Both the position numbers and the translations under genes were made by a program. Positions 28,362 through 31,960 of a stretch of DNA of 47,256 bases are shown in pieces. The DNA comes from Gammaproteobacteria bacterium (GTDB lineage Bacteria; Pseudomonadota; Gammaproteobacteria; Steroidobacterales; PWYM01), in assembly GCA_007693855.1 (NCBI GenBank), contig RECU01000028.1, positions 1 through 47,256 on the forward strand, written 5' to 3'. Below the pieces are notes generated by a model. The model ran no database searches and had not been told where the DNA came from. It saw only the letters and a list, made by a program, of their open reading frames with translations. Every line of letters begins with the position of its first letter. Position 1 is the first letter of the stretch.

Positions 28362-29348
28362 ATGATCTTCGGCAACACACCCGGCAAGCCCACCTCCGAG
28401 GAGGGGGGATTCTTCAGCCGCCTGCGCGCGCGGCTCAACCGCGGCGATTCCTGGCTCACGCGCGACCTGCGCGAACTGATGCCGGGCGGGCGCATCGACG
28501 AGGACACGCTCGAGGAACTGGAGACCCGGCTGCTCATGGCTGACGTGGGCGTCGACACCACCGCCCGGGTGCTGGAGGGACTGGCCGGGCGCGTACGCCG
28601 CGCGGAGCTGACCGATCTGGCGGCCCTGCACGCGGCGCTGAAGGCCCGTATCGTCGAGATCCTCGCCCCCGTCGCGGTGCCATTGACCTTCCCGGCGGCG
28701 CCACGGCCGTTCGTGGTGCTGGTGGTCGGCGTCAACGGCGCCGGCAAGACCACCACCATCGGCAAGCTCGCACACCGGCTCCGCGGGCAGGATCTCAAGG
28801 TGCTGCTGGCCGCCGGCGACACCTTCCGAGCGGCAGCGGTGGAGCAGCTGAAGGTCTGGGGCGAGCGCAATGCGGTGCCGGTGATAGCCCAGGGTACCGG
28901 CGCCGACCCCGCCGCGGTGATCTTCGATGCCTTGAATGCCGCAAAAGCCCGCGGCACGGACGTGGTGCTGGCCGACACGGCCGGACGGTTGCACAACCAG
29001 GCCGACCTCATGAACGAACTGCGCAAGGTCCGGCGGGTCGCCGGGCGTATCGATCCGGAGGCGCCCCATGAGACCCTGCTGGTGCTCGACGCCAGCCAGG
29101 GACAGAACGCCCTGACCCAGGCGCGCATGTTCCACGAGGCGCTAGGGGTCACGGGACTGGTGATCACCAAGCTCGACGGCACCGCCAAGGGCGGCATCCT
29201 GCTGGCGATCGCGGCCGAGCTTGGCATCCCGATCCGCTTCATCGGCATCGGCGAGGCGCGCGAGGATATGCAGCCCTTCGAGGCCGATGCCTTCGCCGAG
29301 GCGCTGCTCGGCAGCCCGGCGGCGGGCGACGGCGCCGCGGCACCGTGA
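28362..29348 (+). CDS. ftsY: Signal recognition particle receptor FtsY
   Basis: A 328-residue SRP receptor GTPase that docks ribosome-SRP complexes at the inner membrane. The NG core shows [10 protein letters not shown] (G1), DTFRAAA (G2), DTAGR (G3), [10 protein letters not shown] (G4) and the closing [12 protein letters not shown]. The acidic A domain of the enteric protein is almost absent: only about 35 residues precede the N domain. The ATG at 28362 fits the conserved start. Its stop overlaps the ftsE GTG by four bases, beginning the conserved ftsY-ftsE-ftsX operon. Confidence 0.96.
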
Positions 29349-30025
29349 TCCGCTTCGAGGCGGTCGGCAAGCGCTATCCCGGCGGCGGTGAGGCGTTGGC
29401 CACCCTCGATCTCGACATCGCAGCCGGCGAGTTCGTCTTCCTGACCGGCCCCTCGGGGGCCGGCAAGAGCACCCTGCTCAAGCTGGTGGCGCTGATCGAG
29501 CGGCCCTCCCGGGGGCAGGTGATCGTCAACGGTCAGAACACCCGCAAGGTCGCGCGCCGGCGGATTCCGCAGTTTCGCCGTGGCCTGGGGATGGTGTTCC
29601 AGGATCACAAGCTGTTGGCCGACCGCAGCGTGTTCGAGAACGTCGCCCTGCCGCTGCTGATCGCGGGCTACGCCGAACGCGACATCAACCGGCGGGTGCG
29701 CGCGGCGCTCGACCTGGTCGGTCTCGCCGACAAGGCACCGCGGCTGCCCCTGACCCTGTCCACCGGTGAGCAGCAACGCGTCGGCATCGCCCGCGCGGTG
29801 GTGAGCAAGCCGCCACTGCTGATCGCCGACGAACCCACCGGCAACCTCGACCCGGCGCTGTCGCTGGAGATCATGCGCCTGTTCGAGCGCTTCAACGAAC
29901 TGGGCGTGACCCTGCTGATCGCCACCCATGACATCGACCTGGTGACCCAGCTCGGGCACCGGCGCGTGGAGCTGGTGTCAGGCCAGCTCGTCGGCGATAC
30001 AGGCCTGGGCCATGGCCGCGCCTGA
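29345..30025 (+). CDS. ftsE: Cell-division ABC ATPase FtsE
   Basis: A 226-residue ABC ATPase that pairs with FtsX to regulate periplasmic murein hydrolases during division. It has Walker A GPSGAGKST, the Q loop VFQDHKLL, Walker B LLIADEPTGNLD and the H loop IATHD. The ABC signature reads LSTGEQQRV rather than the usual LSGGEQQRV, a mild Gly-to-Thr change. The start is a GTG overlapping the ftsY stop. ftsX begins 14 bases before its end. Confidence 0.95.
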   Translation: MIRFEAVGKRYPGGGEALATLDLDIAAGEFVFLTGPSGAGKSTLLKLVALIERPSRGQVIVNGQNTRKVARRRIPQFRRGLGMVFQDHKLLADRSVFENVALPLLIAGYAERDINRRVRAALDLVGLADKAPRLPLTLSTGEQQRVGIARAVVSKPPLLIADEPTGNLDPALSLEIMRLFERFNELGVTLLIATHDIDLVTQLGHRRVELVSGQLVGDTGLGHGRA

Positions 30026-30986
30026 ACGTCGTGGCGGGGAGCTGCGCCGGGGCGCCCCGGGCCTGCTGACCCGTGTCCGCGGCTACTTTCGGCTGCATGC
30101 CCAGAACCTGCTGGGCTCGCTGGGCCGACTGGCCCGCCAGCCGCTCGCCAGTCTGCTGACCGTGGCCGTGATCGGCATCGCGATGGCACTGCCGGCCGGG
30201 CTCGACGTGCTGGTCAACAATGCCCGGGCGCTCAGCGCCGGCTGGGCATCGGCCGTGGACTTCAGTGTCTACCTCGAGCCGGGGCAACCGCTCGCGCGGG
30301 CCGAGACCCTGGCCGCCGAGGCACGGGGGCAGGCCGACATTGTCGCCGTCGAGGTCATCAGCGCCGAGGAGGCACTGGCGCAGCTCAGCCGGTTTACCGG
30401 CATGCAGGCGGCGCTCGAGGCCCTCGACGACAACCCCCTGCCGCATACGCTGGTGGTGCGGCCCCGGCCGGGCCTGTCGGCCGAGGCCGTCAGCCGGCTG
30501 GCTGACGGCTTCGAGTCGCTGGAGGGCATCGATCTCGTGCAGCTCGATACCGCCTGGGTAGAGCGCTTTCTGGCGATCGTCGACATCGCCCGGCGCGCCA
30601 GCGGCATCACGCTCCTGTTGCTCGGGTTTGCGGTGGTGGTGATCGTCGGCAACACCATCCGGCTGGACATCGAGAACCGGCGCAGCGAAATCGAGGTCAT
30701 GAAGCTGATCGGCGGCTCGGACGGCTTCATCCGCCGGCCTTTTCTCTACGGCGGCCTGTGGTACGGCGTCATTGGCGGACTGCTGGCTGTGGTCTTCAAC
30801 GCCTCGGCGCTGCTGGCGCTGGCTGGCCCCGTGCAGCGCCTGGCAGGCCTCTATAACGCCGATTTTGCCCTGCAGGGGCCGGGGCTCACCGGCCTCGGCG
30901 TGCTGGTCGGGGGTGGGGCCCTGCTTGGCTGGCTGGGCGCCTGGGTGGCGACATCCCGCCACCTGCGCGATATCGAGCCGACCTGA
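30012..30986 (+). CDS. ftsX: Cell-division permease-like protein FtsX
   Basis: A 324-residue membrane partner of FtsE. Four membrane segments fit: about 40-62, 195-218 (LLLLGFAVVVIVGNT), 245-270 and 293-315. A periplasmic domain of about 130 residues between segments 1 and 2 is where EnvC-like activators bind in enteric bacteria. The cytosolic coupling stretch IRLDIENRRSEIEVMKLIGGSDGFIRRPF is strongly conserved and split here only by reading length. The start at 30012 lies inside ftsE. Confidence 0.94.
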   Translation: MAAPERRGGELRRGAPGLLTRVRGYFRLHAQNLLGSLGRLARQPLASLLTVAVIGIAMALPAGLDVLVNNARALSAGWASAVDFSVYLEPGQPLARAETLAAEARGQADIVAVEVISAEEALAQLSRFTGMQAALEALDDNPLPHTLVVRPRPGLSAEAVSRLADGFESLEGIDLVQLDTAWVERFLAIVDIARRASGITLLLLGFAVVVIVGNTIRLDIENRRSEIEVMKLIGGSDGFIRRPFLYGGLWYGVIGGLLAVVFNASALLALAGPVQRLAGLYNADFALQGPGLTGLGVLVGGGALLGWLGAWVATSRHLRDIEPT

Positions 30987-31014: not shown

Positions 31015-31044
31015 TTGAACCCGTCGGCCTTTTAGCACTCTAAT
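31015..31044 (+). promoter_or_regulatory. Sigma-70-type promoter of rpoH
   Basis: -35 TTGAAC (31015-31020) and -10 TCTAAT (31039-31044) are separated by 18 bp, matching 4 and 5 of 6 consensus bases. The -10 overlaps the left arm and spacer of the CIRCE operator, so repressor binding would block the polymerase. The predicted start, about 31051, falls in the right arm. Confidence 0.6.
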
Positions 31045-31058
31045 GTAGCGAGTGCTAA
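31032..31058 (+). promoter_or_regulatory. CIRCE operator (HrcA binding site) upstream of rpoH
   Basis: TTAGCACTC (31032-31040), nine bases, then GAGTGCTAA (31050-31058): both nine-base arms match the CIRCE consensus exactly and are perfectly complementary. CIRCE is the operator of the heat-shock repressor HrcA, normally found at groESL and hrcA-dnaK genes. Here it ends 35 bases before the rpoH ATG. No hrcA lies in the window. Confidence 0.93.
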
Positions 31059-31093
31059 TATGAGTAGATGAAACCATGCTGGACGGAGTCTCC

Positions 31094-31960
31094 ATGAGTA
31101 CAGCCCTGGCAACGCGGAATCCTGCCCTCATGCTCGCCGGGCCGGTCGGCAGCCTGGACCACTACATCCAGGCCGTGAACACCGTGCCCATCCTGGACGC
31201 CGAGGAAGAGCACGCGCTGGCGATACGCCTGCGCGAACACAACGATCTGGATGCCGCCCGAACGCTGGTGCTCTCCCACCTGCGTTTCGTGGTGCACATC
31301 GCCCGCGGCTACTCCGGCTACGGCCTGGCGATGGGGGATCTCGTGCAGGAGGGCAATGTCGGCCTGATGAAAGCCGTCAAGCGCTTCGACCCGGCGTTCG
31401 GCGTGCGCCTGGTCTCCTTTGCCGTCCACTGGATCCGCGCGGAGATCCACGAATTCGTGCTGCGCAACTGGCGCATGGTGAAGATCGCGACCACCAAGGC
31501 GCAGCGCAAGCTGTTCTTCAATCTGCGCAGCATGAAAAAGAACCTGAGCTGGCTGACCGCCGAGGAAACCGAGGCCGTCGCGCGCGATCTTGGCGTGCCG
31601 GTGAGCGAAGTCACCGAGATGGAGCGGCGCATGGCCTCGCCGGACATGAGCTTCGATCCCTCGCCCGCCGACGGCGACGACGACTCGAGCTTCGGCCCCG
31701 CGGCCTATCTGCCGAGCGCCGACGCCGATCCGGCCGCCGCGGTGGAGGCCGAGGACTGGGATGCCCGCACCAGCTCGCGGCTGGCCAGTGCGCTCGAGGG
31801 GCTAGACGAGCGCAGCCGGGACATCGTCCAGCGACGCTGGCTCGGCGAGGACAAGCCGACCCTCCACGAGCTCGCCGACACCTATGGTGTTTCCGCCGAG
31901 CGCATCCGCCAGATCGAGGCCAACGCGATCCGCCGTCTCCGGGCTGCCGTCACCGCCTGA
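31094..31960 (+). CDS. rpoH: RNA polymerase heat-shock sigma factor RpoH (sigma-32)
   Basis: A 288-residue sigma-32. Region 2 reads [38 protein letters not shown] across residues of the core-binding helix. The diagnostic RpoH box appears as QRKLFFNLR after [11 protein letters not shown]. Region 4 holds [14 protein letters not shown] and the helix-turn-helix [20 protein letters not shown]. An acidic linker ([10 protein letters not shown]) between regions is a little long. I chose ATG 31094, with GGAG 8 bases upstream; an in-frame ATG at 31076 lacks a site. It follows ftsX by 107 bases, the enteric order, and is preceded by a perfect CIRCE site. Confidence 0.96.

Follow-up and report, generated by a model that had tools for sequence, protein, structure and literature searches.

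The nearest described counterpart of the locus studied here is in Geobacter sulfurreducens, where computation predicted a perfect CIRCE immediately before rpoH and others at groESL and at hrcA-grpE-dnaK-dnaJ (Rodionov et al. 2004, PMC545781, excerpts including Table 8). That prediction concerned one genome of another group, and the excerpts describe no sigma-E promoter at the site; among the HrcA, CIRCE and rpoH texts examined, in the portions available, PMC545781 alone places a CIRCE at rpoH. In Escherichia coli, rpoH is a sigma-E target (PMC4890791, excerpts), and the sigma-E consensus is GGAACTT with a TCAAA −10 element (PMC2893595 and PMC4890791, excerpts); meningococcal sigma-E is described with TCTAA at −10 and a different −35 (PMC2893595, excerpts). 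We found GAACTT-N16-TCTGA in the ftsX-rpoH gap of E. coli K-12, 120 bases before the rpoH start. We take this motif to be P3, the sigma-E promoter of rpoH. Its spacing is the same as that of the sigma-E-type motif described below, but no CIRCE occupies the corresponding register, where 12 of 18 arm positions differ, and a control search for HrcA in E. coli found none, as the first-pass annotation of this DNA had stated. HrcA release is tied to GroEL titration in Bacillus, and Ueki and Lovley reportedly carried out a study of Geobacter RpoH in 2007. For Campylobacter, the title of one study announces direct thermosensing by HrcA.

The window, by which we mean the whole 47,256-nucleotide stretch analyzed, belongs to a 3.28-Mb genome in 114 contigs (G000) and contains the genes ftsY-ftsE-ftsX-rpoH in that order. 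The ftsX-rpoH gap holds the sequence TTAGCACTC-N9-GAGTGCTAA without a mismatch, ending 35 bp before rpoH. A perfect CIRCE in front of a sigma-32 gene had been noticed here before, and on reanalysis both arms matched and the gene scored above the cut-off of its family. The site was the sole match in the window at up to three mismatches. Shuffling the window 100 times gave zero such matches, so that none is expected by chance, and with a reversed-sequence control of rpoH upstream stretches equally empty at that threshold (0/128), we rejected a chance origin. For rpoH itself, the ATG at 31094, chosen by eye and preceded by GGAG at 31085 to 31088, is a likelier start than the ATG at 31076 of the listed open reading frame. 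Inspection by eye between ftsX and rpoH revealed no sigma-32-type promoter, in agreement with the earlier reading. The locus resembles G. sulfurreducens (PMC545781, excerpts) in having a perfect CIRCE near rpoH and a CIRCE at groESL, but differs from that prediction in that the operator overlies a proposed GAAC/TCnnA promoter, and does so across a class.

Table 1. Features of the rpoH locus in the window and the degenerate operator upstream of hrcA
Feature	Position	Strand	Remarks
ftsE	29345-30025	+	TIGR02673; ftsY (TIGR00064) ahead of ftsE
ftsX, gene preceding rpoH	30012-30986	+	TIGR00439, 321.2 bits
GAACCC, proposed sigma-E −35 core	31017-31022	+	GAAC starts 15 bases before CIRCE
CIRCE operator (predicted HrcA site)	31032-31058	+	Arms 31032-31040 and 31050-31058; 0 mismatches
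TTAGCA, weak −35 partner of TAATAT	31032-31037	+	Spacer 18
TCTAA, proposed sigma-E −10	31039-31043	+	TC closes the CIRCE left arm, TAA opens the loop
TGCTAATAT, possible extended sigma-70-type −10 over right arm	31053-31061	+	TAATAT at 31056-31061
rpoH (sigma-32)	31094-31960	+	TIGR02392, 402.8 bits; cut-off 323.1
Degenerate CIRCE upstream of hrcA	L004 6990-6964 (G000:C93)	minus	4 mismatches

The first-pass annotation had made the presence of hrcA and of other CIRCE sites in the genome a check on its proposal, and both were found. HrcA is encoded in G000 (TIGR00331, 337.3 bits against a cut-off of 197.2) by the first gene of hrcA-grpE-dnaK-dnaJ, the last three genes being named by eye from their translations. 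At up to three mismatches the genome has two CIRCE sites, both perfect, one before rpoH and the other before groES-groEL. It also encodes rpoE-rseA-rseB, that is, rpoE with an anti-sigma factor, and rpoE is preceded by GAACTT-N16-TCTAC, with the same spacing as GAACCC-N16-TCTAA at rpoH.

We then looked across 30 near genomes, G000 included, and found a CIRCE before rpoH in 28 of them, lying 103 to 142 bp ahead of the rpoH model match; the arms are therefore conserved among relatives, the second check that had been named. The two genomes lacking it belong to one genus, and in neither was a CIRCE found elsewhere or an hrcA match obtained. An hrcA match was obtained in 25 of the 30. Three near genomes (G006, G016, and G021) had a CIRCE at both rpoH and groES and no hrcA match, which may reflect contigs absent from the assemblies, a repressor that has diverged, or its loss in recent times; the rpoH loci of G006 and G021 are shortened by contig starts, and their CIRCEs were placed before rpoH from coordinates. 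Among genome contigs, a CIRCE with up to four mismatches within 350 bp upstream was present at 39 of the best 80 of 255 rpoH loci. These 39 include the loci of the four nearest relatives and many with Betaproteobacteria in their titles; within the same 80 loci and limits the site was absent from all loci of Pseudidiomarina, SAR86, and Psychromonas.

For the class as a whole, we drew 143 genomes evenly, each from a different family. rpoH was found in 129 (130 loci) and hrcA in 101; the 14 genomes with no rpoH at an E value of 1e-80 lie outside the counts, and genomes outside the full lists of those matching hrcA or rpoE were taken as negative. A CIRCE with up to three mismatches was present at 86/93 rpoH loci of hrcA-positive genomes versus 9/37 of hrcA-negative ones (Fisher 2e-14, a test that ignores the kinship of related genomes, which are not independent). 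In all, 128 of the 130 loci were scanned together, and G000 and G013 were added afterwards; without these two the counts were 84/91 versus 9/37. The reversed sequences of the 128 stretches gave a single match at four mismatches. Of the seven hrcA-positive loci without a site at this threshold, one is a second rpoH copy (G060), another has a site whose loop is 8 bases long (G141), and a third has just the right arm (G065). Four of the nine hrcA-negative loci that keep a CIRCE are in genomes less than 90% complete. Across many families the arms were near perfect while the loop varied. Outside the class, where 60 genomes of the phylum contributed 45 and one rpoH locus was taken from 20 of those 45, two of the 20 loci had a CIRCE at up to three mismatches and one more had it at four, so the class does not set a strict limit to the layout. 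The two carriers are L344 (G201), with three mismatches, and L346 (G216), with none. Both the near-genome and the class surveys show that the layout is widespread, and we rejected the idea of a single-species quirk.

The first-pass annotation had proposed that HrcA would repress rpoH and so join two heat shock systems usually described as parallel. The presence of hrcA, the conserved arms, and the 86/93 versus 9/37 distribution make HrcA control of rpoH well supported by comparison, and from them we infer repression itself. The link is neither special to this organism nor entirely new, since a CIRCE at rpoH was predicted for G. sulfurreducens in 2004 (PMC545781, excerpts) and the arrangement is widespread.

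The same annotation had placed a sigma-70 promoter under the left arm, formed by TTGAAC (31015 to 31020), an 18-bp spacer, and TCTAAT (31039 to 31044). These hexamers are present and a promoter overlapping the left arm remains our reading, but its assignment to sigma-70 is disfavored: TTGAAC-N18-TCTAAT was not conserved in relatives as consensus-like hexamers, where GGAACTT and TCTnA were conserved instead. Against the E. coli consensus GGAACTT/TCAAA, the window sequence TGAACCC-N16-TCTAA matches the −35 at 4/7 bases and the TC..A of the −10; GGAACTT is also the form conserved in relatives. In a logo of 93 CIRCE-aligned stretches from the class (G000 and G013 not among them), GGAACTT was centered 13 bases before the CIRCE, T and A stood at loop positions 1 and 3, giving TCTnA with the last two arm bases, and A/T-A-T directly followed the CIRCE, giving TGCTAAnAT.

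GAAC began 14 to 16 bases before the CIRCE in 60 of these 93 loci (at 15 in 49 of them), a register picked after viewing the logo of the same loci; in 1,000 shuffles of the same 30-base pieces the mean was 0.9 and the maximum 5. TCnnA occurred in 54/60 loci with GAAC versus 12/33 without it (Fisher 1e-7). The element also went with rpoE: with positives defined as genomes above the family cut-off (97 genomes), GAAC was in register at 59/79 rpoE-positive versus 1/14 rpoE-negative loci (Fisher 2e-6), and when any match at 1e-60 was counted as rpoE, at 60/82 versus 0/11. Twenty of the 79 rpoE-positive CIRCE loci had no GAAC in register, and some of them had it at other distances. In the contig set (the best 80 of 255 loci), GAAC was present at 31/39 CIRCE-bearing loci, or at 27/35 once L006 to L009, whose sites are those of near genomes G001 to G004, were excluded. 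Before 35 rpoH loci without a CIRCE, a bare sigma-E pair was found in 7, a weak excess over shuffled sequence (mean 1.8, maximum 6); four of the seven pairs lie 114 to 183 bp upstream of rpoH in rpoE-positive genomes. Although the loci without GAAC in register and the departures of GAACCC and TCTAA from the E. coli consensus speak against it, a sigma-E promoter, rather than the sigma-70 pair TTGAAC/TCTAAT, is the most likely reading of the promoter under the CIRCE.

The CIRCEs at groES served as a control. These were available from 27 of the 30 near genomes; G015 and G028 lack a groES CIRCE, and the G010 locus used was a second groES without a CIRCE, its CIRCE-bearing groES lying outside the control. 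GAAC was found at 2/27 groES sites versus 24/28 rpoH sites, TnA at 0/27 versus 16/28, and TAAnAT at 0/27 versus 20/28. Because the three elements are nearly absent at groES and common at rpoH, we rejected them as general flanks of CIRCE. Most groES CIRCEs of the near genomes lie directly 3′ of a sigma-32-like promoter (CTTGAAA...CCCCTATTA). In G000 and the near genomes, groESL and rpoH are alike in combining an HrcA operator with an alternative-sigma promoter, but at groESL the CIRCE begins just after the sigma-32-like −10, whereas at rpoH it contains the sigma-E-like −10. The groES loops (L298 to L324) have a conserved pattern of their own, unlike that of the rpoH loops, for example G at the seventh and eighth positions in roughly 70% of the 27 sites.

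We considered whether HrcA might instead repress an ordinary sigma-70 promoter at rpoH, either TTGAAC-N18-TCTAAT or TTAGCA-N18-TAATAT, with sigma-E uninvolved. TAAnAT at the end of the CIRCE was conserved in 58/93 class loci, and a loose form, TA[AG]n[ACT]T, stood there in 13/14 rpoE-negative loci. Since the element is kept also where rpoE is absent, a promoter of the sigma-70 type may stand alongside the sigma-E one or take its place, and perhaps a second −10 of that type lies at the right arm. A consensus scan for sigma-70 promoters matching at least 9 of 12 bases found none between 30900 and 31200 and did not pick up the TAATAT element, and the upstream element conserved in relatives is GGAACTT, not TTGACA, and goes with rpoE. 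We therefore regard a purely sigma-70 promoter as unlikely.

A second alternative is that HrcA binds the rpoH CIRCE but only trims basal mRNA, sigma-32 levels being set posttranscriptionally by translation, DnaK, and proteolysis, as in E. coli. The groESL operon of Mesorhizobium loti illustrates that not every CIRCE confers strong heat induction (PMC3989490, excerpts). Against so minor a role, the arms are near perfect across families while the loop varies, and they are mostly gone where hrcA is gone. At the rpoH 5′ end no Rfam family exceeded its gathering score and the fold was ordinary (z −1.25), which also speaks, weakly, against it; an RNA thermometer there was rejected on the same weak evidence of absence, the one Rfam match scoring 14.2 bits against a gathering score of 45. 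We consider this alternative improbable.

In G105, a genome with no hrcA match, GAACTT-N16-TCTTA is kept, the left arm is intact but for one change (TTGGCACTC), and the right arm lacks one base. The site has the look of a CIRCE decaying around a kept promoter, as would be expected with HrcA gone. That the rpoH CIRCE is an inherited relic, or an inverted repeat serving an RNA hairpin or another regulator, would fit its retention at 9/37 hrcA-negative loci, but the strong association with hrcA and the damaged right arm beside intact promoter elements in G105 make this highly improbable.

We think it probable that rpoH is transcribed from a sigma-E promoter whose −10 lies within the CIRCE, repressed by HrcA, and subject to GroEL feedback. 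The analysis shows the sequence elements, how they are conserved, and that they occur together with hrcA and rpoE; HrcA binding, GroEL dependence, sigma-E use, and the direction of regulation in this scheme are carried over from known biology. rpoH would be read from GAACCC-N16-TCTAA, its −10 built into the left arm, and probably also from the sigma-70-type −10 over the right arm. Bound to the CIRCE, HrcA would lie over the start region and both −10 elements, that of sigma-E and the possible sigma-70 one, keeping rpoH low. Withdrawal of GroEL by unfolded protein, or direct inactivation of HrcA by heat, would release HrcA and make rpoH transcribable, most strongly once envelope stress had also freed sigma-E. 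Sigma-32 would then read groESL, whose sigma-32-like promoter precedes a CIRCE, so that HrcA would act on groESL both directly and via sigma-32, and restored GroEL would reactivate HrcA and shut rpoH and groESL together. Acting at two levels, HrcA would exert coherent feed-forward repression with GroEL feedback. If so, the HrcA/CIRCE, sigma-32, and sigma-E circuits, which are usually depicted as separate, meet on one 45-bp promoter (31017 to 31061), an arrangement shared by many species of a large class that carry HrcA.

In the searchable literature, to which subscription papers and RegPrecise do not belong, we found no report of a CIRCE superposed on a sigma-E promoter or of the class-wide rule, and no paper treating HrcA, RpoE, and "rpoH promoter" together; an earlier report may therefore exist. 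A word search of PMC2725144 and PMC2194791, in the portions accessible, returned nothing on an HrcA site at a sigma-E rpoH promoter. Permina and Gelfand 2003, cited for CIRCE profiles by PMC545781 (excerpts), may already have reported a CIRCE at rpoH in beta- or gammaproteobacteria.

A broader proposition, for which we see about even chances, is that the ancestral rpoH promoter of those Gammaproteobacteria sensu lato (Betaproteobacteria included) that keep HrcA was a sigma-E promoter whose −10 fell within a CIRCE. It would work as an AND gate, envelope stress raising sigma-32 fully only when the cytoplasmic GroEL/HrcA sensor permits, and induction of rpoH by envelope stress would then depend on hrcA. 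Lineages like that of E. coli would have lost hrcA, the arms would have decayed, and a bare sigma-E promoter would have been left, so that the rpoH wiring of E. coli would be a simplified, derived form and the parallel circuits of the textbooks a derived condition. G060 offers a natural comparison pair, having two rpoH genes (L222 and L229), one with a CIRCE (one mismatch) and one without.

Finally, a degenerate CIRCE lies upstream of hrcA in G000. This sequence, TTGACACTC-N9-GATTGCTAG, does not reach the cut-off applied in searching the genome, and its left arm gives TTGACA, a sigma-70 −35 consensus. A four-mismatch CIRCE was present at the same place upstream of hrcA in 5/5 members of the genus, which suggests weak self-control of hrcA.
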